Below, piece by piece: positions 12,304-54,768 of a stretch of 64,000 nucleotides of DNA (position 1 is its first letter; each line of letters begins with the position of its first letter). The DNA lies in the IMG/VR virus record IMGVR_UViG_3300043409_002109, positions 62,001-126,000 of that record, one strand, 5' to 3'. Both the position numbers and the translations under genes were made by a program. Under the pieces are notes generated by a model, which made no database searches, was not told where the DNA came from, and saw only the letters and a list, made by a program, of their open reading frames with translations. This stretch comes from a virus.

Positions 12304-12956
12304 TAGAAGCCTTCTAGTTTAATCTTAGGCTTCTTCTGGTATTCGAGAATATCATCAATGATATTTAGTTCCTTCGCTTCCTTGGCGCTAAAGAATATTG
12401 AAGTCTGACCAGCAAAGTATTTTGCCCAATTGGTTTTATTCATCTTGGTTCGCTTACGAATTATCTCATTCATAGTATCAAGGCCCCAGTTGTAGCACTT
12501 AACATGAGAATCTAATTCGACTACAGAGCTTATCTGAGTTTCAGAGATAGGCTCGTGATAGAAGAGGCGGGCACTAGGGAATGCCACTCTAATGTCGCCA
12601 GCCTGCATCAGGAGGAATCCTCCTGAATAAGCCATACCTTGTACTACCGTGATGATAGGACAGTCTACGGCGCGCAAGGTGTCGTAGATAGCTAGGGTTT
12701 GGACTACATCTCCACCGGGGCTGTTTATCATAACCTTAATCGGTGCACTGTCCTCAGCTGCTAGATATTCTATCTGAGAACATATGGCAGACCCTAAGGT
12801 AGGTTCTATCTCTCCTCCGATAAGTATAGTTCTTGTATTTGCGCCGAAGCCGGCGAGAGAGTGAGGAGTCCAAGAGTTAGCAGCACTATCGTGCTCTTCG
12901 TCCTCTTCTTCGGATTCCTCCTTGATATAAAAATTGTTCATTGTATTCAGTATCAT
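12303..12956 (-). CDS. clpP: ClpP-like serine protease
   Basis: Residues 35-215 follow ClpP: TILIGGEIEP, then NSPGGDV (oxyanion region), GMAYSGGFLL with the nucleophilic Ser, and RLFYHEP with the catalytic His. The position equivalent to the ClpP catalytic Asp appears to be Ser (TSIFFSA), so activity could be altered or another Asp used. The N-terminus carries an acidic tail (EESEEEDEEHD). It lies in an early-type operon rather than next to portal/capsid genes, so it is not an obvious head-maturation protease. The ATG overlaps the upstream stop (ATGA). Role: degradation or processing of proteins, perhaps with a host or phage AAA+ partner. Confidence 0.85.
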   Translation of the reverse strand: MILNTMNNFYIKEESEEEDEEHDSAANSWTPHSLAGFGANTRTILIGGEIEPTLGSAICSQIEYLAAEDSAPIKVMINSPGGDVVQTLAIYDTLRAVDCPIITVVQGMAYSGGFLLMQAGDIRVAFPSARLFYHEPISETQISSVVELDSHVKCYNWGLDTMNEIIRKRTKMNKTNWAKYFAGQTSIFFSAKEAKELNIIDDILEYQKKPKIKLEGF

Positions 12957-13384
12957 TCGTCGTCCTCATTTGTAAGTATAAACTTTTTAAGTTTCTCAGC
13001 TGTAAGCTTTTTTGCTTCTTTATATGAGATGACTTTATAGATTAGACCTTGTTTAATTGCTGCTGTGTATTTATCGTGATCTCTCACTTTACCTTTAAGA
13101 AACTCTCTCTGAGCTTGTTCGAATTGAACATTGCCTCTGTTGGTAAAGCTGTAGTGTTGCGCACCATGTAACTCTAAGACTATCCCAAGATCTTCTATAT
13201 ACCAATCGAACCTATGTAGGTTGGTATGATACTCAGGGCAAATATCTTTTACTGGCACTTCCTGAAAGCATTTGAGTCTTGAAAAGAAGGGGTCTTTTGT
13301 AAAGATAACTCTCACTTCGTTATGGAAGTTAGAGTTGCCTTCGATTATTTGGAATTGGTTTTTCCATTTAGTTCGAGGGGGCAT
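12953..13384 (-). CDS. Vsr/EDxHD-like putative endonuclease
   Basis: The 143-residue protein contains RFDWYIEDLGIVLELHGAQHY followed by a helix with DHDKYTAAIKQG and YKVISYKEAKKLT. The D-x9-E-x-H-G-x-Q-H order resembles the Vsr-fold family that includes mismatch endonucleases and the EDxHD homing enzymes such as I-Bth0305I. It may nick DNA at mismatches, or act as a free-standing homing nuclease. No intron is visible around it. The C-terminus is basic, then acidic (NEDDE). Confidence 0.6.
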   Translation of the reverse strand: MPPRTKWKNQFQIIEGNSNFHNEVRVIFTKDPFFSRLKCFQEVPVKDICPEYHTNLHRFDWYIEDLGIVLELHGAQHYSFTNRGNVQFEQAQREFLKGKVRDHDKYTAAIKQGLIYKVISYKEAKKLTAEKLKKFILTNEDDE

Positions 13385-29330: not shown

Positions 29331-31526
29331 TTAACCTTTATATATGTCTATAGTATCTGCAAATATTTCAATGATTGGAGCTTCTTGAGAAACTTTACCT
29401 GAGACTTTTATTAAATCTTTTACCTCTGGTAGTGCTCGGTATTTAATAATTTGAGCATAACTTCTAGGGAATAGAATTATCTTTGCAGTTGCTGTGCCAT
29501 CGCCTATTTCTAGAATAGCCATAGGTTGGCCTTTTTTTGTTTTCATATCTCTTACTTCTATTACCATTCCGCAAACCACTGCGTTAACACCTTCAAAGAC
29601 GTTAACTAAAGCTTCTGCTTCGGAGTAGATCATTCGTGCAGGGTGTCTCCCTAAGAAGCACCCTATGTATTCTTGTTGAATCATCATTTGATGTAAGGTG
29701 ATAGGTATTTTACTATGTCTCTCTAGGGTTGGCATAGTAGGAAACTCTTTTTCTTTTAAGCTAACTTTCTTTCGAAGGTTTGAAGTTGTTTCTAAGAACT
29801 CTAACTCTTCTGCTGTAAGTTCTCTATCCTTCTTTCTTGCCTCTATCTTTTTAAGTTCAGTTCGGCGCGCGATCAAGGGCTCCAGTTCAAGATTCTCTTT
29901 TTCTCTGATTTTAATCTCTGCTTTTCTTTCATAAAATTCTTGGAGTTCTGTTTTGAAATCATAGAGTTTATGCATTTGAGCAAGTAGGTCTTGTCTGAGG
30001 TAGCCCATAGTATCGAAGGCTCCTGCATTCACTAGAGATTCAAAGACTTTGGTATTTATTTTCTGGGTATTTACTCTTTCAATGAAATCGTTAATATCTT
30101 TAAAAGGGAGTTTACCTCTAGCTGATATGATTGCTTGAGAAGCGGTCTTACCGCAAGAACGGATACCGTTCAACCCAAAATATATTTCTCCCTCGGCCAC
30201 AATATGAAAGCCAAGGTAAGATTTCTGTACTGAGGGCGGTGAGATTCTAATTCCTAATTCTCTTGCTTCAATAATATATTCAGGAGCTTTGGCGGCCCAA
30301 TCTTTAGGCATCATATCTTCTGATCTTACGCTCATTAAAGAGCAAAAGAATTCAGTAGGATAGTTCGCTTTAAAGTAGGCACAGAGGTAGGAAACGTAAC
30401 TGTAGGCTACGGCATGTGATTTGTTAAATAAATATTCTCCGCACCCAAGAATAATTGCCCAGAGATAATCTATCTGATGATCGTTGAGCCCATATCTTTG
30501 ACAACCTTTTTTAAAGGGCTCTGTTATAGTGGCGAGGTATTTGAGATCTTTCTTCCCTATCGCTCTTCTGGCTAAATCGGAATCAACTAGGTCTAGCCCT
30601 GCTATTTCTACGAACAATAGCATGAGCTGTTCTTGGTAGACCAATACATTCCTTGTGTCTTTCCAAAGGGTTTGAATCGCTTCAGGTATTTCGGGATCAG
30701 GATCATTGTTTAGATACCTATCTAGGAATCCTGCTGATGATGGCCCAGGCCGAACAAGTGATGTTATATCACTCAGCTCTCCTATACTTTTAGGCTGAGC
30801 TTGCAATGAGGCGCGTTTGATAGAAGCTGATTCTTCGAACTGGAACACTCCAGTCAAGTGACCATCAGCAAATAATTTATAAGCTTTTGGATCTCCGTCA
30901 GGAACAGTATAAATATCGTATACCTTATTGTGTCGCTCGCGTATAAGTTTCACACATCTCTTTAGGATATCTAAGTTCTTGATAACCAGGAAGTCGAATT
31001 TAATGAGACCTTGAGCTTCGGTATCTCCCATTTCAAACTGAGTTATTCTTTCATAGTCTTTATTTCTCCAGACAGGAACGTGATTCGCTATAGGAGTATT
31101 GTTTATCACCATGCCAGCCGCGTGAACCCCATAGTTAGATACCATACCTTCTAACTGGTAACAGAAATCATGCCAATCTTTATATTTGCCGATAGTGAGT
31201 TCAGGTTGCTCTGGGTAATTTTTGTCTGGATTACCTTCTATGATTTCTTTGAATGTGGCTTCTTTCCCGAATAAGGGTGGCGGTATTTTTCCCAGGATTG
31301 TTTGCATGAGACTATAATGGGTCTCTCTCTCAGCAGGGTTCTCTGGCTCGGTTAGTTTGAAGTAGCGGCGCGTTAAGCTCTTAGTCCCGAATGTTCCTTG
31401 AGTACCTATGTTAGCTACATTGTCGCGGCCCCACTCTTCTACTATCCATTCTAGGACTTTCTCTCGACCTTCTCCATCAAAGTCCATGTCAATCGTTGTG
31501 TTTGGATAGATCGTTATTCTATCACT
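29331..31526 (-). CDS. dnaE: DNA polymerase III alpha subunit (DnaE), exon 2 / C-terminal part
   Basis: Encodes the palm, thumb, fingers, HhH and OB parts. Palm residues are in TIDMDFDGEGREKV (equivalent to the PDFDVDF catalytic pair of E. coli DnaE); later come IKFDFLVIKNLDILKR, VRPGPSSAGFLDRYL, YQEQLMLLF and FNKSHAVAYSYVSYL. The frame has an internal ATG at 31487 but no ribosome site, and homology continues upstream through SDRITIYPNTTID to 31526. There the coding homology stops at a group I intron end. The predicted joint with exon 1 is RFLN|SDRITIYPN, giving 1133 aa in total. Confidence 0.85.
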   Translation of the reverse strand, partial: SDRITIYPNTTIDMDFDGEGREKVLEWIVEEWGRDNVANIGTQGTFGTKSLTRRYFKLTEPENPAERETHYSLMQTILGKIPPPLFGKEATFKEIIEGNPDKNYPEQPELTIGKYKDWHDFCYQLEGMVSNYGVHAAGMVINNTPIANHVPVWRNKDYERITQFEMGDTEAQGLIKFDFLVIKNLDILKRCVKLIRERHNKVYDIYTVPDGDPKAYKLFADGHLTGVFQFEESASIKRASLQAQPKSIGELSDITSLVRPGPSSAGFLDRYLNNDPDPEIPEAIQTLWKDTRNVLVYQEQLMLLFVEIAGLDLVDSDLARRAIGKKDLKYLATITEPFKKGCQRYGLNDHQIDYLWAIILGCGEYLFNKSHAVAYSYVSYLCAYFKANYPTEFFCSLMSVRSEDMMPKDWAAKAPEYIIEARELGIRISPPSVQKSYLGFHIVAEGEIYFGLNGIRSCGKTASQAIISARGKLPFKDINDFIERVNTQKINTKVFESLVNAGAFDTMGYLRQDLLAQMHKLYDFKTELQEFYERKAEIKIREKENLELEPLIARRTELKKIEARKKDRELTAEELEFLETTSNLRKKVSLKEKEFPTMPTLERHSKIPITLHQMMIQQEYIGCFLGRHPARMIYSEAEALVNVFEGVNAVVCGMVIEVRDMKTKKGQPMAILEIGDGTATAKIILFPRSYAQIIKYRALPEVKDLIKVSGKVSQEAPIIEIFADTIDIYKG

Positions 31527-36540: not shown

Positions 36541-36601
36541 CTTGTTCCTAACTTTGAAGCATTTCTTCTGTAAAGATTAGTGGTGTCGCAGCGCGACCTA
36601 T

Positions 36602-37807
36602 ATTTAGAAATCTACTAAATAACAAATTGTATTTTATAGGATCTACATGCGTTATGCCAAGTGCATAACATACGAGACTTCCTGCGGCTGAGCCTCGGCC
36701 TGGTCCACTTACTACATCTAATTCATCTTTAGCGTAATTAATAAACCTACTTACAATCAGGATATAATCTGAGAAACCCATTTTTTTAATTGCTTTTAAT
36801 TCTAGTGTTAGTCTTTCTCGATATTCTAGAGGAGGTTTTTCTCCAAATCTTTCTGTAAGTTTTTGCTTAGAAAGTTTGGCTAAATATTCCCAGCTAGTAC
36901 ATTCTAAAGGCAATGGATATTTGGGGTAGTGGTTGGCTGTATCTTTGAAGTAGCTCTTATCATCTATCATATTGGCAATATGAATTGTATTTTGTAAAGC
37001 CTCCATTGGAATTCCCTGCTCTTGGGCGCGCAACATCATCCACTCTGGAGAACCAACATGTACATCTATTTCTCCAAAAGTAAATCTCTTAGGATTATAC
37101 ATCGTATCATTAGTTTGCATACACAATGCCTGTTCATGCAAGGACTTATGTTCTGGGTGAGTATAGTGCGCGTCGTTAGTAAGAATCAAGGGAAGATTTT
37201 TTTTAGCAGCAATTTCCATAAGACCTTTATTCAAAGCCTGCTGCTCCTCATCCCTATGGAGCTGTAGCTCAATAAAGAATCGATCCTTGAAGATATCGCA
37301 GTGACCATCGATGAGGCGCTCCGCTTCATCTCTACGGTTAAGGAGAATGAGTTTACTGAATGCGCTTCCGAGACAGGCTGTAGTTGCGATGATGCCTTCG
37401 TTGTGCTCCTTGAGAAGAGCGTCATCGGCCCTTGGCTTGTAGAACATCCCTGAGGTATAGGCGTTGGAGCTGATGGCCATAAGGTTTTTCCAACCCACAG
37501 CATTTTGAGCTAATAGAACTAAATGATAGTACTTCTCCCCCATGGCATCTACTTCGCGGATAGAACGATCTTGGACGGTATAGTAAGCCTCTAAACCTAG
37601 GATAGGTTTTATACCAGTCTTCTTGCATTCTTTATAGAATTTGTATGAGCCTGCGAGGTTACCATGATCAGTGATGGCACAGCTTCTCATTCCCATTTCT
37701 TTAATCTGAGAAGGGAGTTGGTGTATCCGATTAATCCCGTCTAATGTGGAGGTCTCGAAATGGCAATGAAGATGACAGAAAGAATCTGTATTATCTGAAG
37801 TAGTCAT
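36602..37807 (-). CDS. dnaE: DNA polymerase III alpha subunit (DnaE), exon 1 / N-terminal part
   Basis: Contains the PHP domain (HLHCH at residues 12-16, AITDHGNLAG, GLEAYYT, THPEHKSLHEQ) and the start of the palm (SGPGRGSAAGSLVCYALGITHVDP). Family homology ends at LFSRFLN. The open frame continues for 17 non-homologous codons to TAG at 36548, which would be intron sequence. The proposed last exon base is 36602. A downstream segment at 36552-36545 (GTTAGGAA) can pair with the exon end TTTCTAAAT as an internal guide sequence, with one bulge. Unspliced, the product would be a 419-aa truncated protein. Confidence 0.85.
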
Positions 37808-44397: not shown

Positions 44398-44662
44398 GTT
44401 CATCAGTAGCATTTGTTGTAACCTTGTTCTGGGTTAAGAATATTTTATAGAAGTATCCTAGGTCTAAAGCCATTAAGGCTAATTCATAGGAACTGCATTT
44501 ACTCAGTATTCTCTTCTCTTCTAGGTAGTCGATAAAAGTTCTAACGAGTTCCTCATGAGGAATGCGTTGATCTTTCATACTTCTTTCTACTAATTGTTTT
44601 ACTAACTCTGAAGAGTCAAGGGTTACGTTACCTTGAGAAGTTTCGACAACCCATTGGATCAT
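44351..44662 (-). CDS. Hypothetical protein (103 aa)
   Basis: Helical (SSELVKQLVERSMKDQRIPHEELV; ELALMALDLGYFYKIFLT), acidic-basic balanced, with a Pro/Thr tail. Four-base overlap with the Whirly-like gene suggests coupling. Function is unknown. Confidence 0.45.
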   Translation of the reverse strand: MIQWVVETSQGNVTLDSSELVKQLVERSMKDQRIPHEELVRTFIDYLEEKRILSKCSSYELALMALDLGYFYKIFLTQNKVTTNATDEHGKTPRVSPTVPGNT

Positions 44663-45165
44663 GACTTTAATCGCACCTGGAGCTTAAGGATAAGCTCTCG
44701 CAACTCGTCTATCTCTGCAAATAACTCTTCGTTGTCATCTTCCCATCCGACTAGGTAAGGAGCCATGCTCATTAAGGTCTGACGAAGGACACGCCACTCG
44801 CCATCTGTTAAAGAGACTTTTACCTCACGTCTGTTGTCGCCCTTACCTTCTCCAAGACTTAGAAAATAACCTGACTCTTGGCCTGGATTAACTCTAAGCT
44901 TCTTGGGGGTATCTTCAGACTGGTGAAAGATATCTACGGTATCGCCATTAAAGATATTTGTTATATCTGTGAATGATATTGCGAATGTAATCTTTTTGCT
45001 CCAGTCCCAGGAGAGGTCTCGGCCAGTGCCGGTACCGGGTGCTGCTTCTAAAAGAACTGCCCCCTCCTTCTCTAGAAAACCTTTCTCATTTAGCCGGGGT
45101 GGAATCAGTCTAAGCTGTGCAGCTCCACCCTTTTTGTAGAATTTTAATGTACCTTTTCTTGACAT
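44659..45165 (-). CDS. Whirly-like ssDNA-binding protein
   Basis: The likely start is ATG 45165 (MSRKGTLKFYKKGG), two bases after the upstream stop. The order is that of the Whirly/MRP nucleic-acid-binding fold: AAQLRLIPPRL, SWDWSKKITFAISFTDITNIF, DIFHQSED, YFLSLGEGKGDN, REVKVSLTDGEWRVL, and the end MAPYLVGW, like Whirly's LPHIxGW. This is a pattern match to a family mainly known from plants and kinetoplasts. It probably binds single-stranded DNA in replication. A C-terminal acidic/Leu helix follows. Confidence 0.6.
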   Translation of the reverse strand: MSRKGTLKFYKKGGAAQLRLIPPRLNEKGFLEKEGAVLLEAAPGTGTGRDLSWDWSKKITFAISFTDITNIFNGDTVDIFHQSEDTPKKLRVNPGQESGYFLSLGEGKGDNRREVKVSLTDGEWRVLRQTLMSMAPYLVGWEDDNEELFAEIDELRELILKLQVRLKS

Positions 45166-45167
45166 TC

Positions 45168-45425
45168 TTACTCTTTTAGTTGTGCAATCCAATCTAGCAT
45201 TATTAGTCCTTGTAAGGCCATGCTGTTTCCAATTGTTTCGCCGTTAGTTGTTCGGTCTTTCATAACAATATGAAAGACATTGTGTTTATCCACCGATCTA
45301 GTGTCAGGAGGAACTCCGATTTCCTCGAAGCCCTCAAGCACTAGAAGGTTGGCTATTAAAGATATTTTATCAGAAATAGAGAGACCATACAACTGTTCTC
45401 TCATAATTTCTATTTTATTTGTCAT
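45168..45425 (-). CDS. Hypothetical protein (85 aa)
   Basis: A small mixed protein (MREQLYGLSISDKISLIANLLVLEGFEEIG ... DKHNVFHIVMKDRTTNGETIG, quoted in parts). It follows phoH with an 11-base overlap and precedes the Whirly-like gene. No family was recognised. Confidence 0.5.
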   Translation of the reverse strand: MTNKIEIMREQLYGLSISDKISLIANLLVLEGFEEIGVPPDTRSVDKHNVFHIVMKDRTTNGETIGNSMALQGLIMLDWIAQLKE

Positions 45426-46281
45426 ACTCTTTGCGCGTCCATAAATGTATCTCAGTTGCTAGTTGACAGATAGCAGACCTGTACTGAGTCTTTAATTCTA
45501 CTATAGAAGAGATAGGGGACTCCAAGAATGGGGTGCTATCAGCTATGGTGTATAGTCCAGTCTGGTTCAGGGGTACTTTGATATCTATCTGGTTCAGATC
45601 ACCTAGCGCAATGAATTTTGAGTTCTCACCCATTCTGGATAGTAGGGTATTCATCTCTGGCCAAGTAGTGTTTTGAGCTTCATCTATTAGGAAGGTGCAG
45701 TTCTCATAAGTGCATCCTCGGGTCAACTCTAATGGGATGAACTCAAGGTCTTTGTTATCTATCATTTGTTTAAGGTAGTTATCTGCTTTATTTCCTAGGA
45801 TCTTTTTAAGAACAATTTCGAAGGAAGCGAGGTATGGCGCATACTTCTCTTCGAACGACCCTGGCACAGCACCGAATGCTTTGCCTTGGCCCACCATTAT
45901 GGCGGGCTTACATAGAATAATCTTCTTCTTCTGGCTAAGGTATTGATCAAATGCATAAGATAAAGCTAATGAAGACTTGCCGGTGCCTGCAGCGCCAAGC
46001 GCTATATTCACTAAGATGGTTTCGTTGAGAAGGGCCTCAGCAAAAGCAGATTGATGAGCGTCCCGCGTAGTGATGCTCCCTAGCTTATACGTCCCGCCAG
46101 CGAGAACAAACTCGCCGTTACCAAGATGACGAGCAAAAGCTGTATGTTTTTCATTCATTTCAGAGCGAAAAATTACACAAGAGTTTACTGGTATATAAAC
46201 TGTCTCTATGCAGATGCGACGTTTGTCGTACAAGCTTTCAACGAAATAGGAAGGAACAAGAATTTCTTTTACGCAATGCAT
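45415..46281 (-). CDS. phoH: PhoH-like ATPase
   Basis: The 288-residue protein has an N-terminal beta domain and a PhoH/P-loop core: VNIALGAAGTGKSSLALSYAF with Walker A, KPAIMVGQGKAFGAVPGSFEEK, TFLIDEAQNTT with Walker B, and FIALGDLNQIDI. The ribosome site AGGAAAG precedes ATG 46281. PhoH family members are common in phages, often with unknown targets in nucleotide or RNA metabolism. It is likely the first gene of a transcript reading toward 37.8 kb. An inverted repeat lies just upstream. Confidence 0.88.
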   Translation of the reverse strand: MHCVKEILVPSYFVESLYDKRRICIETVYIPVNSCVIFRSEMNEKHTAFARHLGNGEFVLAGGTYKLGSITTRDAHQSAFAEALLNETILVNIALGAAGTGKSSLALSYAFDQYLSQKKKIILCKPAIMVGQGKAFGAVPGSFEEKYAPYLASFEIVLKKILGNKADNYLKQMIDNKDLEFIPLELTRGCTYENCTFLIDEAQNTTWPEMNTLLSRMGENSKFIALGDLNQIDIKVPLNQTGLYTIADSTPFLESPISSIVELKTQYRSAICQLATEIHLWTRKEYDK

Positions 46282-46742: not shown

Positions 46743-47003
46743 TTAGAACTTGGTACAGTAATGCAGTGCGCCTTTGACCACGCCTGTGGCGCTTACGAGG
46801 TCTCCTGCGTAAACCTGCTCACTATCCCAACGATTCTTATCTACGGTCTGGCCGTTGACAGCAATCTCGTTGTTAATGGAGCAGTCGGCATTATAAACTT
46901 CACGCGCACGGTCAAGCACACGACGAAGGGTTACTACGCTTTCACCCGGGAAATCTAGCTGCTTCTGGCCGTTGCCAGGAAGACGAAGAAATTCTACTTT
47001 CAT
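46743..47003 (-). CDS. Ubiquitin-like beta-grasp modifier (ThiS/PRTRC-C-like)
   Basis: The start is ATG 47003 (MKVEFLRLPGNG), two bases after the E1 stop; an ATG at 47042 lies inside the E1 gene. The 86 residues follow the ThiS/MoaD beta-grasp pattern, ending INNEIAVNGQTVDKNRW, then YAGDLVSATGVVKGALHYC. The usual C-terminal GG is replaced by a single KG followed by eight residues, so activation would need removal of that tail. The linked JAB peptidase is the natural candidate. Operon E2-JAB-E1-Ubl makes a modifier role very likely. Confidence 0.8.
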   Translation of the reverse strand: MKVEFLRLPGNGQKQLDFPGESVVTLRRVLDRAREVYNADCSINNEIAVNGQTVDKNRWDSEQVYAGDLVSATGVVKGALHYCTKF

Positions 47004-47005
47004 TT

Positions 47006-47755
47006 TTAATTCTCTGATTGTTCTGTTGTTGAAGCACGACACAAAGATCGTACAGTAAGATTGGGAGCAAAGTGGAACATAGTCCTACGACGGTCTAGCA
47101 TGTTCCAAGGTTCACCAGTAGAGTCTTGAATCATTCGATCACACATCTGATGGACCAGGAAAGATACTGTGTTGAATACTAGGGTACTACATATCTTACG
47201 ATTGCATGGACCTTCTGGTGTTTCAGCATCATTCCCTAAGCTGTTAAGCCAAACGTCTACTTGCTCACTATCTAGATTATCTAGAAGATTTACTTGGCCG
47301 AAGTCAAATCCAAGCCTTGTCTCGAAAACTCCAAGAATCTGAGGATTCATCCGGAAGACTTCAGCGACTGCTCGTCTAGAGTCAAAAGAATCTGTAGCCA
47401 GAACTAAAGGTCCGCCTTCTGCAATAGTCGATTCTTTCGAAAAGAATTCTGCATGAGTAGTTACATCTATTTCTGGATTGAATCTGCGGAGTACATGTGC
47501 AAGTGCATCTACCTTTTGCAGGCCTATGTGTTCAACATCATAGGCCTGATTGGGAAGATTGTGTGGCTCGACCTGATCACGATCCCAAAGATCGAAACGA
47601 GTAAAGCCCATTCGAGCTGCTAAGAGAGCAGCATTGCTGCCAACAGCCCCACAGCCTACAACAATAACTCTGCATTCAGCTAAAGCAGGATTAAACCAAG
47701 AAGAATGTCTTTGAAAACTAACCTTCTTCTCAAATTCAACGGGCGCTTGCGTCAT
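47006..47755 (-). CDS. E1-like Ubl-activating enzyme (ThiF/MoeB family)
   Basis: Adenylates the C-terminus of a ubiquitin-like protein. Visible motifs are the nucleotide loop VVGCGAVGSNAA (residues 34-39), LWDRDQVEPHNLPNQAY (residues 56-72, D-x-D and the NL-x-Q loop) and LATDSFDSRRAV. Candidate catalytic Cys residues lie in GPCNRKICS (184 and 189). At 249 residues it is a minimal E1 without a Ubl-fold domain. The 3' end is 2 bases from the Ubl gene and the 5' end overlaps the JAB gene by 20 bases. Confidence 0.88.
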   Translation of the reverse strand: MTQAPVEFEKKVSFQRHSSWFNPALAECRVIVVGCGAVGSNAALLAARMGFTRFDLWDRDQVEPHNLPNQAYDVEHIGLQKVDALAHVLRRFNPEIDVTTHAEFFSKESTIAEGGPLVLATDSFDSRRAVAEVFRMNPQILGVFETRLGFDFGQVNLLDNLDSEQVDVWLNSLGNDAETPEGPCNRKICSTLVFNTVSFLVHQMCDRMIQDSTGEPWNMLDRRRTMFHFAPNLTVRSLCRASTTEQSEN

Positions 47756-49052
47756 TTTCTTTCCTGGACTTTTTATTCTTATTCTTATTCTTATTCTCGT
47801 AAGCGTTAACGTTCTTGAGGAAAAGCTTCATCCATTCATTGTCTAGCTCTTTAGCAATTCCTGGCATTCTCTCAGAAAGTTTATAACCAAAAGCAATTTC
47901 AGCAGCAGCAACAAAGAGATCTGCACCAAAGGTGTCTTGCCCTATAGCAAGCTGTCTAAAATCTTCTCTAGCATCTTTATAAGGAGCCATAGAATCAGCG
48001 TTCACCTTAAAAGCATAGAGAGTTGGAACATCATTCTTGTCTTCTTCGAATAGAAGAGCACTCATAATTTTCCAACAGTACTTAGCTTCTAACGAGTCTG
48101 GATCCCCAAAATACTGATCCATTTCTTTCATGAACCTCGCAGTAGGAACTTCACTAGCTTGAAGTGTCTTAGCGTTTGTAATAGCTTCTGCACATTCAGA
48201 AAGAGTTGGGTAACTTGGTGCGACCCAAGAAAGAATAAATCCATCTTTAATCGAAGTGTTCTGGCCAGTCTGTTTCGTCGTAGAGTCCTGGGACTTTCCA
48301 CCAGTGTGGGTTTGCCCCTGCACAGGAAAATTTTTAGTGCCATTACTATTATTGCTACCTCCTGTATAAGCAGTAGAGGTATGAACTCTTGTCTTAATTC
48401 TTTCTTTCAGGAGGGTGTCAATTTTCGCAAAGTCGAATCCATCGGAGATATGAAAGGTGGCATTTTGTACCTCGGCCCCCAAAACCGGATCGTAAAGACG
48501 ACAAAAGTATTCATCTTTCTGATTAAGGATTACCATCATAACAGGCTGAGAAGGATTATCTTCTGTGATTTTACGAGCAATCCAATCTTTCCACTGCTCA
48601 TTATCAGTACCGCTTGGATTACAAGCCATCTGGACGTGAGAGTGACACCAGACTGCCATACGAGAACAGTCTAGGTTGAATGCTTCTAGAGCTTCATCTC
48701 TGGGGGGGATTCTATTGCCCTCTTCATCCACTGGAGGAACCAAAGTCCCTTCAGTGTTACGAACCATCAGGCCATGACGCTCGCGAAGCTCGAATGCAAG
48801 CTTCAAAAGCATGTTCCCGTCAGTCTCGACTGTTTGTCCAGTAACAGTTTGTTCTGGAATTAGAATATCAGAAATGAAATAGTGAATCATCTTATTCTTA
48901 TGATCGACTTCTCTATCTATCATATGAAACCACTGACATTCTTGTGCGTTACACTTAGCAGTTAGATACCTTGCCTGCTCTAGTGCAAATCGATCCCAGG
49001 TTATCTGGTATCGATACCGTGTACTAAGCAGTTCCGGTGTTGTTGCTTTCAT
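47736..49052 (-). CDS. JAB/JAMM metallopeptidase of the Ubl system
   Basis: JAMM peptidases cleave Ubl precursors or isopeptide bonds. The zinc motif is complete: H137-S-H139, then S147 and D150 (CHSHVQMACNPSGTD), with a Glu candidate upstream in the QECQWFHM strand. Residues 1-200 form the JAB domain. The remainder contains a Gly/Ser/Asn/Thr-rich linker (residues 235-285) and a helical C-terminal domain with a Lys/Asn tail (NKNKNKNKKSRKEN). The extra C-terminal domain may bind the E2-like protein. It overlaps the E1 gene by 20 bases and the E2-like gene by 29. Confidence 0.88.
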   Translation of the reverse strand: MKATTPELLSTRYRYQITWDRFALEQARYLTAKCNAQECQWFHMIDREVDHKNKMIHYFISDILIPEQTVTGQTVETDGNMLLKLAFELRERHGLMVRNTEGTLVPPVDEEGNRIPPRDEALEAFNLDCSRMAVWCHSHVQMACNPSGTDNEQWKDWIARKITEDNPSQPVMMVILNQKDEYFCRLYDPVLGAEVQNATFHISDGFDFAKIDTLLKERIKTRVHTSTAYTGGSNNSNGTKNFPVQGQTHTGGKSQDSTTKQTGQNTSIKDGFILSWVAPSYPTLSECAEAITNAKTLQASEVPTARFMKEMDQYFGDPDSLEAKYCWKIMSALLFEEDKNDVPTLYAFKVNADSMAPYKDAREDFRQLAIGQDTFGADLFVAAAEIAFGYKLSERMPGIAKELDNEWMKLFLKNVNAYENKNKNKNKKSRKENDASAR

Positions 49053-51513
49053 TATTTTCCTGTTGTTCGTTTAGAACTTTTTCAATTTTTGCAGTTTGAT
49101 TCACAAGAATACCTTCGTATTTTGTATAGCCTTTTCGAAGAATACTACCCATTCTTTTCTCTACTTCTGCATTTGCATTTTCTGGAGTTGAAACTACAGT
49201 TATAGTTTTTCCACCTGAAGAAGGAATGATCCAATTAAAGCCTTGCTTTATCATTGATCCGAATCGAATGACTACATCAGGCAAACCATCAGTATATTTT
49301 ATCTGATAGTAAAGATGATTGGTATCATTTGTACTATTAACATAATTGAAAGTTTTTTCTTCAAAAGAATAACTATGAATTAATGTTGGGATTTCAGATA
49401 CTTCTGGAAAGTAAGTGTATTCTTTTCCCCAATGATCGGCTGGATCTGCATTACTTACCCAGCTATTCAATGTTAAGAGAATCAAGTTCAAGTCTTCATT
49501 CTGAAAGCATTGCCATAATGCAGTAGTAGCTTCTCCTGCACAAACTCTAGCTGAATGAGTAAACATAGAACTAATACTTGAATAATCTATTGGATTAATT
49601 ATTAATGCAGCTGTATGTGGATGCAATTTAATTGTTCTTAATGCATTCTTATCAACATTTCTCTCTTCTGGACGAACGCCAAAGATTGTATATTTTTCCG
49701 CAGGAAATAATTCAATAGTTGGGCTATCTCCTGGAACAACCATAGAGACTTTGAAAAGGTATGGACCTCCGACTCTAGAGCCCCACTTAGTTTCCCACTC
49801 TGGGTCTCTTGCTCCTACTCTAATCTTATTAGGCCGAATTGTCCTAGCAATAACTTGATGAAGGAACCAGTTGCTGTTCAAAGAGCATTCTTTATTTTTA
49901 GAAACACTTTCAATTGCACCAGAGACTTTATTCTTATAAAGAACATCAAGAACTATCCAGTTCTGGCGTAACCAAATCTGTTGAATATTAGGTAAGGTTT
50001 CAATACCCAATTCTTTAAGAATATCATCTTGTGAAACTGCAGATTTTAGAGCTAATTCATTCAGAATATCAAAATCTTTTTTAACTTGATCTAATTTTTT
50101 CTGCTGAGCATCTAAAGTATTATTCCAATTTTTAATTTCTTGTTCTTTAGCTAAGAGTATTCTTTTTAGCTCCTTTAATTGATCTACGTTAGCCTGTCTA
50201 ATCGCAAGTATTTGATTGCGTTTAGACTGATGCTGCTTGTATATAGATTCAAATTCAAGAACATTTTTCTCTTTATTCTGGGCAGCATTTAAATTTCTTT
50301 TAAAATTTCTACCAGATTCTGTTCTTACTAGAAGTTTAGAAAAATTCATATTTTGCCAAGATTCACTTGGTAATATTTTTTTTTCTAAAAGAATATTCTC
50401 ATATTTTGACTGTATTTTTAGAGTGGAATTAATTTTTTCTAAGGTAGTATACCAAGATTTACCTAAGGTATTTATTTGATTAGGAAAAAATCTTTTAACT
50501 TCTTTATATCTCTCAACCAAAATAGGATGATTTTCTAAAGATGTTCTTTGTCTAGCTAAATCTTTGACTAAGATATCTAGAGCCTCGGTTAAAATAAGAT
50601 TTTCTTTCTTATCGAGGTCTGAATAAGAAGTATTAAAATGGATTAGCTGAGTTATAGAGACTTCTTCATAGGTCCCTGAAGAAGGATTTATTACTAAAAC
50701 GTTTCTTCGTATTGGGATGAACATACCAGGCTGATAATTTCCTAACGCTATCTTCTCGTTTGAAAATTCAACTTCATTTTTAGAATTAGACTTTACAAGT
50801 AAGACATTAGTTCTATGTGACGGGCCACAATTGTTTATTAGTTCTTTGAGATATTCTTTAGGAAGTAAACTGATAGGTCCATCTTCGTCTACCCAGCCTT
50901 GATATAACCCTATTTTTAACCTACGATTTTCAGCATTAAGATTTAAATTTTTATTATTAACTCTTTTTGTTGTCCAAGTATTAGGAAGTATGAAGCTCAT
51001 ATCTATTTGAGGTTCAACTAGATCGGGATATATCTCTTTAATAGAAGGTGGAATAAGATTATATTCATCGAATACTAAAGGAGTCACATATATTGTATCA
51101 GGATATGGCTGATAAGCAGATAGCTTTTGATCTGGATCCTTAGTATAAGATGAAATAGGATCATCTTCTTCTGACTGTTGTACTATCCAAAAGATACTTG
51201 AAGAACTTGAATTCTGCTTTAATTTTATATTCGACAACGAATATCTTGATCTTAAATATTCGAGATTATCTACTTTTGGGCTGCCACTAGGCTTTAGTAA
51301 TATATCTTCACTTAAAGATATAAATTTATTTTCACTTAGATTAAGTGTATATCTGGCAAGACTTTTAATTATTGGATCAAAGTCTTCATTAAAAGGATGT
51401 CCAGATCTTGTAGCGTTTGCCTGCAGTAAAGAAGGGAAAGCTAAAACAAATCGAGAAGAATGGAGCGGGCGGGATCCAAGACTAGGAAGCGCATGACGAG
51501 AAGTAGAATACAT
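49024..51513 (-). CDS. Large protein with C-terminal prokaryotic E2-like domain (829 aa)
   Basis: The C-terminal region resembles prokaryotic ubiquitin-conjugating (E2/PRTRC-B-like) domains: LFKVSMVVPGDSPTIELFP, then LHPHTAALIIN at 631-640, a Cys candidate C658 in ARVCAGEATTALW, and LLTLNSWVSNADPADHW. The HPH...C spacing is E2-like. The N-terminal 350 residues are beta-rich and unassigned; residues about 400-490 are a coiled coil (LKELKRILLAKEQEIKNW). It would take Ubl from the E1 and transfer it to a target; the N-terminal part may choose the target. Operon position strongly supports this; the fold itself is inferred. Confidence 0.65.
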   Translation of the reverse strand: MYSTSRHALPSLGSRPLHSSRFVLAFPSLLQANATRSGHPFNEDFDPIIKSLARYTLNLSENKFISLSEDILLKPSGSPKVDNLEYLRSRYSLSNIKLKQNSSSSSIFWIVQQSEEDDPISSYTKDPDQKLSAYQPYPDTIYVTPLVFDEYNLIPPSIKEIYPDLVEPQIDMSFILPNTWTTKRVNNKNLNLNAENRRLKIGLYQGWVDEDGPISLLPKEYLKELINNCGPSHRTNVLLVKSNSKNEVEFSNEKIALGNYQPGMFIPIRRNVLVINPSSGTYEEVSITQLIHFNTSYSDLDKKENLILTEALDILVKDLARQRTSLENHPILVERYKEVKRFFPNQINTLGKSWYTTLEKINSTLKIQSKYENILLEKKILPSESWQNMNFSKLLVRTESGRNFKRNLNAAQNKEKNVLEFESIYKQHQSKRNQILAIRQANVDQLKELKRILLAKEQEIKNWNNTLDAQQKKLDQVKKDFDILNELALKSAVSQDDILKELGIETLPNIQQIWLRQNWIVLDVLYKNKVSGAIESVSKNKECSLNSNWFLHQVIARTIRPNKIRVGARDPEWETKWGSRVGGPYLFKVSMVVPGDSPTIELFPAEKYTIFGVRPEERNVDKNALRTIKLHPHTAALIINPIDYSSISSMFTHSARVCAGEATTALWQCFQNEDLNLILLTLNSWVSNADPADHWGKEYTYFPEVSEIPTLIHSYSFEEKTFNYVNSTNDTNHLYYQIKYTDGLPDVVIRFGSMIKQGFNWIIPSSGGKTITVVSTPENANAEVEKRMGSILRKGYTKYEGILVNQTAKIEKVLNEQQENNESNNTGTA

Positions 51514-52028
51514 TATATTTCAAATCCTTTTAATATTATTTGTTCATCTATATTTTCGTCGATAGCATTAACTAAGAATTTGAATTGATTTTCACTGATC
51601 TTTACGTCAGGTAGAATCTCATAATTTTTTAGTAATAGCTGGATATTAGGTTCAAGTTCGCCTTGAGCTTTATATTTTAGTATCAATAGTGTTGGGTGAG
51701 GCCGAAGAGAGCTTAACTCTATTAAGAATTTCTTTCTTAGAGTTTCACGATGCGAAGGAGTTATATTATTTTGAAATAATATTTTAATTCTTTGATAAAA
51801 ATTCTTAGTTAATCCAGCCATAGCTTTTTTTCTTTGAGTTTCGTTCCACGTCTTTGTGGCTCTTGTGCTAGGATAATTTTTAGGTATAGAGAGAGAAAAC
51901 TTCTCCCTCTTTCCATATTTAAATTCTGGTAAAGTTTTATCTGGTATTAAATAAAAATTCTTGTAATCGTCATCCGTATTTTCAGTCGGTGTTATTGGAA
52001 CAAACTGAATCAATTGATTAAGACGCAT
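51513..52028 (-). CDS. Accessory protein of the Ubl operon (171 aa)
   Basis: A basic mixed protein (FSLSIPKNYPSTRATKTWN; LTKNFYQRIKILFQ) that begins 1-10 bases from both neighbours: ATG 52028 overlaps the 52018 gene end, and its stop shares a base with the E2-like start. No family was recognised. Close coupling suggests a cofactor or a target-selecting subunit of the E2-like protein. Confidence 0.55.
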   Translation of the reverse strand: MRLNQLIQFVPITPTENTDDDYKNFYLIPDKTLPEFKYGKREKFSLSIPKNYPSTRATKTWNETQRKKAMAGLTKNFYQRIKILFQNNITPSHRETLRKKFLIELSSLRPHPTLLILKYKAQGELEPNIQLLLKNYEILPDVKISENQFKFLVNAIDENIDEQIILKGFEI

Positions 52029-52623
52029 CTTTTTCCACGGCTATAAGGGCGATGACATACAATCCAACATTGGGCGCTATGTCATCAATAAATATTTGAG
52101 GATGTTTAATCATAGGTAGTAGCTCTTTGGGTAAAACTAGACATCCTATTTCAGTTAGGATTCTTTTAGTATCTAAGAGAATATCTATGATTTTTTCAAT
52201 CTCTTCATTTTTAGATTGAAGAGTTATTTCTAACTTGTAACGAATCTTATGATATTCGATCCAGAGTTTATTAAAAGTAGATACAAGATTATATTCGTAA
52301 TCAGAGAGTAATCGAAGTACTTCTGATTGAATATGAATCTTTAGCGAGTTAAGATTAGGGATTCGATTTGTATTACGTAAACGTACTTGTACTAATCCAT
52401 TAATATAATAATTTGCTTCTATTTCAATTCCGCAACTTTTTAAGTTTATTATCTCACTAGGAGATAATCGATTATATTCATTTCTTTCTAGGAATGTTGC
52501 AGGAGATCCAGCGAATGCTAAACTTAAGCATTCTTGTGGATCCAACCTCAAAGAAATGTTGTTACTCTGGCCCTTTGTTATCAGAAGATTCGTATTTCTC
52601 ACTATCCAAGGGATAGAGTTCAT
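52018..52623 (-). CDS. Accessory protein of the Ubl operon (201 aa)
   Basis: Probable start ATG 52623 (MNSIPWIVRNTNLLIT); an ATG at 52653 lies in the previous gene. The middle is a helix/coiled-coil region (ILLDTKRILTEIG), and the N-terminal half is beta-rich (ISLRLDPQECLSLAFAG). It overlaps the next gene by 11 bases. Function is unknown; operon context links it to Ubl conjugation. Confidence 0.5.
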   Translation of the reverse strand: MNSIPWIVRNTNLLITKGQSNNISLRLDPQECLSLAFAGSPATFLERNEYNRLSPSEIINLKSCGIEIEANYYINGLVQVRLRNTNRIPNLNSLKIHIQSEVLRLLSDYEYNLVSTFNKLWIEYHKIRYKLEITLQSKNEEIEKIIDILLDTKRILTEIGCLVLPKELLPMIKHPQIFIDDIAPNVGLYVIALIAVEKDAS

Positions 52624-52774
52624 TTTGAATCTCCATGATAAAAGATGGAGCATCTTTTATGTCATAGACTAATAAAGGAAAGCCACACTCTTCACACAAT
52701 AGTCTTTCTGGTAGAATTTCTAATGCTTGAGCATAACCGCAGTTATCTAGATCTATACAATAAACTTGATATAA
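52562..52774 (-). CDS. Small Cys-motif protein at the head of the Ubl operon (70 aa)
   Basis: Probable start ATG 52774 (MLYQVYCIDLDNCGYAQAL). Cys residues lie in YCIDLDNCG and LLCEECGFPLL, so a zinc knuckle is possible. It overlaps the next gene by 62 bases, an extensive overlap. A structural hairpin lies just upstream. It could be the first gene of the Ubl operon. Confidence 0.5.
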   Translation of the reverse strand, partial: LYQVYCIDLDNCGYAQALEILPERLLCEECGFPLLVYDIKDAPSFIMEIQNELYPLDSEKYESSDNKGPE

Positions 52775-52795
52775 CATCTTTTGACCTAACCAGCA

Positions 52796-52812
52796 GGGCG
52801 GCATAGCCGCCC
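52796..52812 (-). terminator. Hairpin before the Ubl operon
   Basis: GGGCGGC-TAT-GCCGCCC on the - strand. It lies between the 64-aa gene and the first Ubl-operon gene. The following bases are not T-rich (TGCTGGTTAGG), so it could be an attenuator or processing hairpin rather than a full terminator. Confidence 0.55.
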
Positions 52813-53031: not shown

Positions 53032-54768
53032 TTATCTACAGAAACCTATAGAAGGTTTATGTAGAATATTTTGTTTGAAAACTGTATCAATAAATTCTTT
53101 ATTGATAGTTTGATTTGTTTTTTCATAAGCGTAGATGTTTGTAGCAGCTACTCTTAAGAGTCTTCGGACGCGCTGTTCGATCTGTCGAACTTGTTTTATT
53201 TTGGCAAGCTCAGAGAAAGCTTCGTCGGTCCATTCAATTGGTAATGTTTTAATATTGTAGTCAAGAACTATCTTGGGCAGAAGATAATCATTTAAGATTT
53301 TATGACGTTCTTCATATTCATATTCTCTAAATCGAATGAACTCTAATCTGTCTTTAAGAGCTTCAGGTATTCTATCTTCATAGTTTACTGTAGCAACGAA
53401 TAGAATCTTGCTAAGATCTACCTCTAACTCTATATAGCGATCGATAAATTCTTTATTTTGAGAGTTATCTAATGCGCTTAAAAGAGCTGATGCGGCTGAA
53501 CCTCTATGAGTATCAAGTTTATCTAGTTCATCCAAGAGTATACAAGGATTCATTGATCCAGCATTGCAAAGAGCATTGATAATTCTTCCGCATTTACTAC
53601 TGATGTATGTTCTTCTGTGACCTACTATATCGGCTTCATCACCGATACCTCCTAAGCTGACGGTCTGGAAGGACCGTCCAGAAGCTTCTGCTAAGGTCCT
53701 AGCTATACTGGATTTACCTGTTCCTGGAGGTCCAGATAAGCAGATAATAGCTCCTGAACTATTACCTTTAATCTTTTCTATGCACATATGTTCAATCAGA
53801 TAATCTTTTACATCATCTAGACCATAGTGGCTTCTGTTAAGATCTTCTCTTAATGCTTTTAGAGAGAAATCTCTTTCTGAACTTTTGCCCCATGGGATTT
53901 TGAATACCCAGCTAAGATAATCTTTTAGCATAGATGCTTCGGTTGAATTTCCTGGCATCGAATCTAATCTACTTATTTCCTCAGAAATTTTTGGGCGATG
54001 CATCTCTGGGAAAGCTGTTATATCCAATCTTTCTTTATAAGAAAGATTCTTAGAAGAAGATGTATTACGCTCTTGTTTCTCTATCTTAGAATTAGTAGCA
54101 GGTGATTTCTTTTTGTGTTTTCTTTCCATAACAAGATCACTAATTTGAGTAGTGGTCATAAGCCATCTTTCTAAATTAGATTCTTCTTGAAGATACTTAA
54201 TTCTAGATTCTTTTTCAGAGAAAACATAATCTGCCATATAATCCATACGACGGAATAAGTTTACTTCTTCTGTTAAGAGATTACATAAAGTCTGTTCAAA
54301 TATATCAGAGTTTTTAGAGATGACTTTAGATAGAGCTTCAATATCTGCATAGATACCATGTTCATCATCTTCTAACTCTTCTATATAAAATTGAGTAGTA
54401 CAATAGATTCTAGAGAGTCCATCAGTATCTATATCTAAAATAACATCTTCAGTAACGAATGCGCGTCCTTCAATTTTAATTGTATATAAAGACATCTCAT
54501 CATTGATATCTTCAGGCTCTGTTATAGAGCCTAATAATCCTATGTCATATACATTATCTAGATACTCTCCAAGATCTTCCATCATTAGAGATGTGTCTCT
54601 AGTTTTGGGTATAGCAAAGAGAATGCGACGTTTAATTTGATCTCTTCCTAAAGAAAATTCTACAGGAGAAAAATACTTTAGACGTTCATTCGAAATTAAT
54701 AAGTGAATTACTTGTCCAGGGATAGGTATGTCATCATTTAATTCTAATACGTAAACGGGATAGTTCAT
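53032..54768 (-). CDS. Lon-like AAA+ ATPase lacking the protease domain
   Basis: Residues 1-215 look like a Lon substrate-binding N-domain with a coiled coil. Residues 283-345 match Lon's linker (YLSWVFKIPWGK; HYGLDDVKDYLIEH). The AAA+ domain has Walker A GPPGTGKSS (346-353), SLGGIGDEADIVGHRRTY and Walker B CILLDELDK (409-417). The sequence ends after the small alpha domain (RQIEQRVRRLLRV), so the Ser-Lys protease domain is absent at 578 residues, while complete Lon is about 780-800. It is probably an ATP-driven unfoldase that may trap, remodel or protect proteins, or work with the ClpP-like protein. Confidence 0.9.
   Translation of the reverse strand: MNYPVYVLELNDDIPIPGQVIHLLISNERLKYFSPVEFSLGRDQIKRRILFAIPKTRDTSLMMEDLGEYLDNVYDIGLLGSITEPEDINDEMSLYTIKIEGRAFVTEDVILDIDTDGLSRIYCTTQFYIEELEDDEHGIYADIEALSKVISKNSDIFEQTLCNLLTEEVNLFRRMDYMADYVFSEKESRIKYLQEESNLERWLMTTTQISDLVMERKHKKKSPATNSKIEKQERNTSSSKNLSYKERLDITAFPEMHRPKISEEISRLDSMPGNSTEASMLKDYLSWVFKIPWGKSSERDFSLKALREDLNRSHYGLDDVKDYLIEHMCIEKIKGNSSGAIICLSGPPGTGKSSIARTLAEASGRSFQTVSLGGIGDEADIVGHRRTYISSKCGRIINALCNAGSMNPCILLDELDKLDTHRGSAASALLSALDNSQNKEFIDRYIELEVDLSKILFVATVNYEDRIPEALKDRLEFIRFREYEYEERHKILNDYLLPKIVLDYNIKTLPIEWTDEAFSELAKIKQVRQIEQRVRRLLRVAATNIYAYEKTNQTINKEFIDTVFKQNILHKPSIGFCR

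Follow-up and report, generated by a model that had tools for sequence, protein, structure and literature searches.

Introduction

To our knowledge, conjugation of ubiquitin-like proteins (Ubls) in bacteria has so far been known as a form of host antiphage immunity. Here we describe a cassette in viral DNA that encodes a Ubl, an E1-like adenylating enzyme, a large E2-like protein and a JAB/JAMM peptidase. It lies in a 64,000-nucleotide stretch, hereafter the window, which covers bases 62001-126000 of a linear 150,205-bp IMG/VR virus record (IMGVR_UViG_3300043409_002109). Among described systems, Bil offers a close comparison: BilB carries a CEHH motif in which histidines follow the catalytic cysteine, BilD comprises an inactive and an active adenylation domain, and BilA has two Ubl domains (PMC11354881). 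Iyer et al. 2006 listed bacterial operons with Ubl, E1, E2 and JAB genes and, within phage tail clusters, a pairing of Ubl with JAB; the passages of that survey consulted here show no phage cassette with both E1 and E2 (PMC1779556). Our literature search, which left bioRxiv preprints and most subscription journals outside its reach, turned up no paper on phages that encode E1, E2, JAB and Ubl in one cassette.

A predicted four-gene Ubl-conjugation cassette

The flanks of the window's contig encode a terminase, a portal, a major head protein and a tail sheath, and we therefore assign the contig to a contractile-tailed phage. The window itself encodes a primase/helicase, a DnaE-like polymerase (two genes), PhoH and a Whirly-family protein. 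An earlier sequence-only reading of this DNA had proposed a minus-strand operon for the Ubl, E1, JAB and E2-like protein. All four genes are there, contiguous and head to tail on that strand, and in uniting a Ubl, an E1, an E2 and a JAB within a single operon they have the gene set of prokaryotic Ubl-conjugation cassettes of the general kind. The gene content, homology, catalytic-residue conservation, linkage and setting of the cassette were all established computationally. Its components are:

46743..47003, minus strand: Ubl, 86 amino acids, ThiS/SAMP2-like beta-grasp protein
47006..47755, minus strand: E1, single-domain ThiF-type adenylating enzyme, 249 amino acids
47736..49052, minus strand: JAB/JAMM peptidase, 438 amino acids
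49024..51513, minus strand: E2-like protein, 829 amino acids, with an N-terminal region without assignment, a coiled-coil-like stretch and a C-terminal UBC-like domain
49384..49866, minus strand: putative UBC-like domain of the E2-like protein, residues ~550-710, with a well-predicted AlphaFold core and P, H, C and G residues invariant in 51 relatives

The adenylating enzyme and the peptidase

With a Pfam ThiF match far above the cut-off (E = 8e-25), the sequence of the E1 makes its identity as a ThiF-type enzyme certain. Among ~125 non-redundant E1s there is little or no variation at the nucleotide-binding glycines and at residues D58, D60, N66, K81 and C184, and the closest solved match of the family profile is UBA5 (2.8e-21), an E1 with a single adenylation domain. 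Two cysteines, C184 and C189, had been singled out in the sequence-only reading. C184 (codon 47204-47206) occurs in 122 of 122 aligned relatives and is the presumed catalytic cysteine, whereas C189 falls outside the invariant columns.

The 438-residue protein has the full JAMM signature, E38...H137-S-H139...S147..D150, which conforms to the E...HxH...S..D pattern of JAMM peptidases and agrees with its earlier description as a complete peptidase. Its Prok-JAB match is below the cut-off (E = 0.006), and profile matches to RPN11 and JAMM1 are weak. The motif is conserved across 132 relatives: all of them have H137, H139 and D150, 131 retain S147 and 117 retain E38. We predict that the JAB acts as both Ubl-processing and deconjugating enzyme.

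A candidate E2 family

The 829-residue protein is matched by no model in the libraries scanned, and the family to which it belongs has no model in Pfam, PHROGs or NCBIfam. From the sequence surrounding the putative cysteine in 15 other cassettes, with the window excluded, we built a hidden Markov model (HMM). This model matches the protein at residues 630-712 with E = 7e-6 to 1e-4 and with HPH...C in register; it is the top match among all window open reading frames (ORFs), no other doing better than E = 0.2, and none of 2,000 shuffles reaches its score. By BLASTP, the same region matches proteins of three sister virus contigs, L038 (183 kb, E = 2e-18), L039 (162 kb, 4e-12) and L040 (124 kb, 4e-17), which together with the window form one fully supported E1 clade. 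The HPH...C motif previously noted in the C-terminal part is present, with its exact form corrected to H631-P632-H633...C658 (codons 49615-49623 for HPH, 49540-49542 for C658). Only P632, H633, C658 and G660 are invariant across 51 relatives, forming HPH...(P)C(L)G, and the HP[H/N] and catalytic cysteine typical of the E2 (UBC) superfamily are found in the window protein and its relatives alike.

The E2 profile of crAss-like phages aligns in register with the other E2s (hhalign E = 2e-6); when the window E2 by itself is set against the crAss-like profile, hhalign gives no significant match, though both cysteines are in register. As a global cross-group alignment misplaced the motif, cores around the cysteine were used. 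By these comparisons, homology of the 829-residue protein within an E2-like family is strong.

For the fold, we turned to structure prediction. An AlphaFold model of residues 505-760 is confident only at ~550-710, and UBC-type entries make up 4 of its 25 weak Foldseek matches in the PDB. A compact relative, L120, is modelled with a predicted local distance difference test score of 89, and UbcH7 and UbcH8 are its top PDB matches, at probabilities of up to 0.96 and E values of 0.11-0.14; a search with its sequence profile gives a weak match to UBE2L3 as well (E ~0.3). On these models, membership of the window protein in the UBC fold is probable, not proved. Some E2-like proteins bear cysteine-rich, zinc-finger-like tails (L028:8255-10000, L103:99-1703, L050:714-2096 and L002:4241-6919), which are possibly built-in E3-like modules.

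The Ubl and its tail

The Pfam ThiS match of the Ubl is below the cut-off (E = 0.013). Of 243 window ORFs, the Ubl is nevertheless the best match (E = 3.6e-6) to an HMM made without the window, which recovers the ThiS-like beta-grasp protein of the sequence-only reading with a corrected start: the probable ATG is at 47003, two bases past the E1 stop, in place of a GTG at 47042 that adds 13 residues. With the window included, the family profile matches ubiquitin chains as well as SAMP2 (3e-8) and ThiS (2e-5).

The window Ubl ends in ...ATGVVKG-ALHYCTKF, in which the tail glycine, Gly78 (codon 46770-46772), stands at the position where ThiS ends and is followed by a short extension; cleavage is predicted after Gly78. 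Sister tails read ...ATGSVKG-N in L039 and L040 and ...QGSKG-AF in L038, and those of most other groups have KGN or KGG and a short extension. L040 has three tandem Ubls (12674-13315, plus strand), each ending in VKGN, much like polyubiquitin. Two separate Ubl genes occur in L039 (11991-12242 and 12901-13197), and paired Ubls are found elsewhere as well. The tail glycine with its extension and the tandem Ubls indicate proteolytic maturation, for which the JAB is the obvious enzyme.

Distribution and linkage

Scans of viral contigs for exact peptides of the window E2, E1 and PhoH gave no relatives, and alignments of divergent E1s and JABs were therefore needed. The distant E1s of annotated phages have JAB and large unannotated proteins as neighbours; such loci occur in crAss-like Steigviridae, in large phages of Xanthomonas and Erwinia, where no JAB gene was noted, and in a gut element. 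The E1 and JAB alignments recovered viral loci and 80 loci in bacterial genome bins, from Bacillota, Melainabacteria, candidate-phyla bacteria, Methylomirabilota, Myxococcota and others. The cassette is thus more general than could be seen from the window. Several E1 matches (L007, L011) were set aside as ordinary thiamine or molybdenum genes; L010 is a plasmid operon of another kind, with E2, E1 and JAB. Upstream of the E2 gene of one crAss-like phage, L003:3350-4276 encodes a ribosomal bL12-like domain (residues 134-220), and the stretch before it looks Ubl-like by eye.

These searches leave 111 non-redundant loci, of which 90 have E1, JAB and E2, and 75 a Ubl as well. Since every locus was reached by way of its E1 or JAB, what this count shows independently is how often E2 and Ubl accompany them. 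The count bears on a reading in which the Ubl is a ThiS-like sulfur carrier that the E1 thiocarboxylates and the JAB trims, sulfur passing to a nucleotide or metabolite. The E1 and Ubl do resemble ThiF and ThiS, and ThiF-JAB-ThiS sulfur operons are known (PMC1779556). However, an E2-type protein with an invariant HPH...C beside E1 and JAB in those 90 loci argues against it, and sulfur genes, rhodanese and cysteine desulfurase among them, are missing from the neighbour families shown, which makes sulfur transfer very unlikely.

Genomic setting

Four further entries surround the cassette:

52562..52804, minus strand: small zinc-ribbon-like protein, 80 amino acids, C-x5-CGY...C-x2-CG, likely start ATG 52777
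51513..52653, minus strand: two accessory genes of 171 and 211 amino acids upstream of the E2 gene, their membership in the cassette unsupported
53032..54768, minus strand: Lon-type AAA+ ATPase without Lon peptidase domain, matching TIGR00763 at positions 254-573 of 795 only
44659..46281, minus strand: conserved downstream neighbours by Pfam and by synteny in L038-L040, namely a PhoH-like ATPase (45415-46281), an 85-residue gene and a Whirly-family protein (44659-45192)

Transcription of the minus strand runs from the zinc-ribbon-like gene through those of 211 and 171 residues to the E2-like, JAB, E1 and Ubl genes. All three upstream genes had been taken to travel with the cassette. Only the zinc-ribbon-like gene has positional counterparts with matching cysteines, which in L039 and L040 directly precede the gene for the E2 and in L038 lie one gene further upstream; the 171- and 211-residue genes have no family match in the libraries and no BLASTP match in the sister viruses, and we rejected both as members. 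Because some E2s of other groups bear cysteine-rich tails themselves, the small zinc-ribbon protein is a plausible adaptor.

Zinc-ribbon, E2, JAB, E1, Ubl and Whirly genes recur in a common order in the window, L038, L039 and L040, and PhoH stands beside the cassette in the window, L039 and L040. Homologues of the Lon-like AAA+ gene adjoin it in L038 and L040. Lon_C was not found in any of these four virus contigs, with a control positive in 13 of 14 genomes, and the ATPase is a candidate unfoldase or reader. The Whirly-family protein, of a plant-type single-stranded DNA-binding family (Pfam E = 1e-13), is conserved in the phage group. The DnaE-like polymerase of the window is split into two genes (29331-31487 and 36548-37807); the ~5 kb that separates them holds a tail-fibre-like gene and genes on the plus strand.

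The 93 flanking ORFs taken from ~40 viral cassettes belong most often to the DNA polymerase A, reverse transcriptase, helicase and primase families; single-stranded DNA annealing is also represented, and structural families are absent from the top 25. Gene position, compared without matched control loci, suggests that the cassette belongs with DNA-replication genes. Many gut-type cassettes have a reverse transcriptase gene on their flank (e.g. L018:12504-13874), and such genes account for 8 of the 93 flanking ORFs scanned. At L006:10886-16609, a Ubl cassette and reverse transcriptase gene are followed by a run of paralogues of ~90-100 residues ending in C-x-C-[ED]-SLL.

This setting bears on what the cassette is for. 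The sequence-only reading had offered virion modification or counter-defence; neither purpose gains support, and the genomic setting indicates a DNA-replication module instead. Attachment of the Ubl to phage structural proteins at assembly would parallel Bil, which is reported to act on phage virions, and a Ubl domain is paired with a JAB domain in lambdoid tail genes (PMC1779556). However, the commonest neighbour families include no structural genes, and the terminase, portal, head and sheath genes lie elsewhere on the contig on the opposite strand, so that we consider this unlikely. Counter-defence would have the cassette disturb host Ubl defences such as Bil or CBASS Cap2 through host Ubls or their targets. 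Phages meet such hosts, and the JAB and E1 come from superfamilies used in those defences; but the cassette brings its own Ubl and is self-contained, has lost none of its catalytic residues, sits among replication genes, not in a variable anti-defence island, and is retained in widely differing phages, and this role appears highly improbable. Lastly, a phage or prophage might use the cassette as a Bil-like defence against superinfecting phages. Although related cassettes occur in bacterial genome bins and the organisation of Bil is similar, the E2 and E1 architecture is unlike that of Bil and the cassette is found in large contractile-tailed phages, inside the replication module, which renders exclusion of competitors quite unlikely.

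A proposed conjugation pathway

We favour, at a probability of roughly three in four, a phage-encoded, reversible ubiquitin-like conjugation pathway that belongs to the replication module. That the phage carries its own pathway had been proposed before, and at the sequence level it is well supported: the contig is that of a phage and the four activities are kept together across very divergent viruses, making the proposal very probable.

We infer every chemical step of this pathway, as well as its cleavage site and targets. The JAB would trim the short extension past the tail glycine (...VVKG|ALHYCTKF). An E1 dimer would then adenylate that glycine and hold the Ubl as a thioester on C184, from which it would be handed on to C658 of the E2-like protein. 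The long N-terminal region of the latter probably picks substrates, with help of the small zinc-ribbon protein, and the JAB may also take the tag off. The most likely targets are proteins acting on nucleic acids, either of the phage or of the host that it has seized.

Several observations weigh against this account. The tail of the gut-clade Ubl, ...KADNA, is without glycine, and the window Ubl has a single Gly ahead of its extension, so the mature Ubl end may differ from the one proposed. Foldseek searches of the PDB with the window E2 domain model returned nothing significant (best E 0.7), and the structure matches of L120 likewise do not fall below 1e-3. Replication targeting is suggested only by where the genes lie, with no matched control loci for comparison.

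PCNA ubiquitination and Cdc48 regulate DNA replication in eukaryotes. By analogy, the cassette could constitute a complete reversible phage Ubl pathway, with a Ubl that is processed and in some viruses made as a polyUbl, an E1, an undescribed E2 family that has a zinc-finger adaptor of its own, a JAB as deconjugase and a protease-less Lon unfoldase as reader, that regulates viral DNA replication; we regard this fuller scheme as possible but doubtful. If a conjugation pathway does operate here, reversible protein tagging would also be part of viral biology in bacteria. The cassette occurs in many unrelated phages and bacteria, usually beside DNA-replication genes, and bacterial viruses may thus run tagging of their own. 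The predicted catalytic residues and the tandem-Ubl precursor provide concrete, testable handles, and a new E2 family would bear on the origin of E2 enzymes.

Comparison with known systems

The sequence-only reading had likened the cassette to Bil and to PRTRC-type cassettes, a likeness that does not hold at the level of family. Like Bil, the cassette unites Ubl, E1, E2 and JAB activities in one operon, and in both the JAB is proposed to expose the tail glycine. Bil's defining features are lacking, however: HPH precedes the cysteine in the window E2 and its relatives, in contrast to the CEHH of BilB; the window E1 has one adenylation domain in 249 residues, in contrast to the two of BilD; and the window Ubl is a single domain, with one, two or three in relatives, unlike BilA (PMC11354881).

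CBASS Cap2/Cap3 and the E2-E1 fusions (rows 6a/6b of Iyer et al. 2006) share the E1 fold, the JAB partner and an E2 with histidine before cysteine. In contrast to Cap2 and the fusions, the cassette described here makes its E2 and E1 as two proteins, has a dedicated Ubl gene and contains no cyclase or metallo-beta-lactamase gene. PRTRC and row 6d operons of the same survey do have separate Ubl, JAB, E1 and E2 genes. The PRTRC ThiF model TIGR03736 nevertheless scores 20.2 bits on the window E1 against a cut-off of 144.75, and NCBIfam gave no match to the remaining PRTRC genes (A, B, C, D, E, F) among the other six cassette proteins and three neighbours scanned; row 6d E2s are without histidine before the cysteine, whereas the window E2 has HPH (PMC1779556). 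ThiS-ThiF and SAMP2-UbaA share the Ubl and E1 folds, SAMP2 being the closest solved relative of the Ubl, but lack an E2.

The crAss-like phages (Steigviridae, Asinivirinae) have E2-like, JAB and E1 genes in matching order, between primase and uracil-DNA glycosylase genes, and their E2 profile is in register with ours. Their E1 forms a separate deep clade, in contrast, and their E2 motif is HSH; the genes are annotated only as thiamine biosynthesis (ThiF) and metalloprotease. By its sequence, then, the cassette resembles Ubl-conjugation systems, yet it belongs to no family that has been named.

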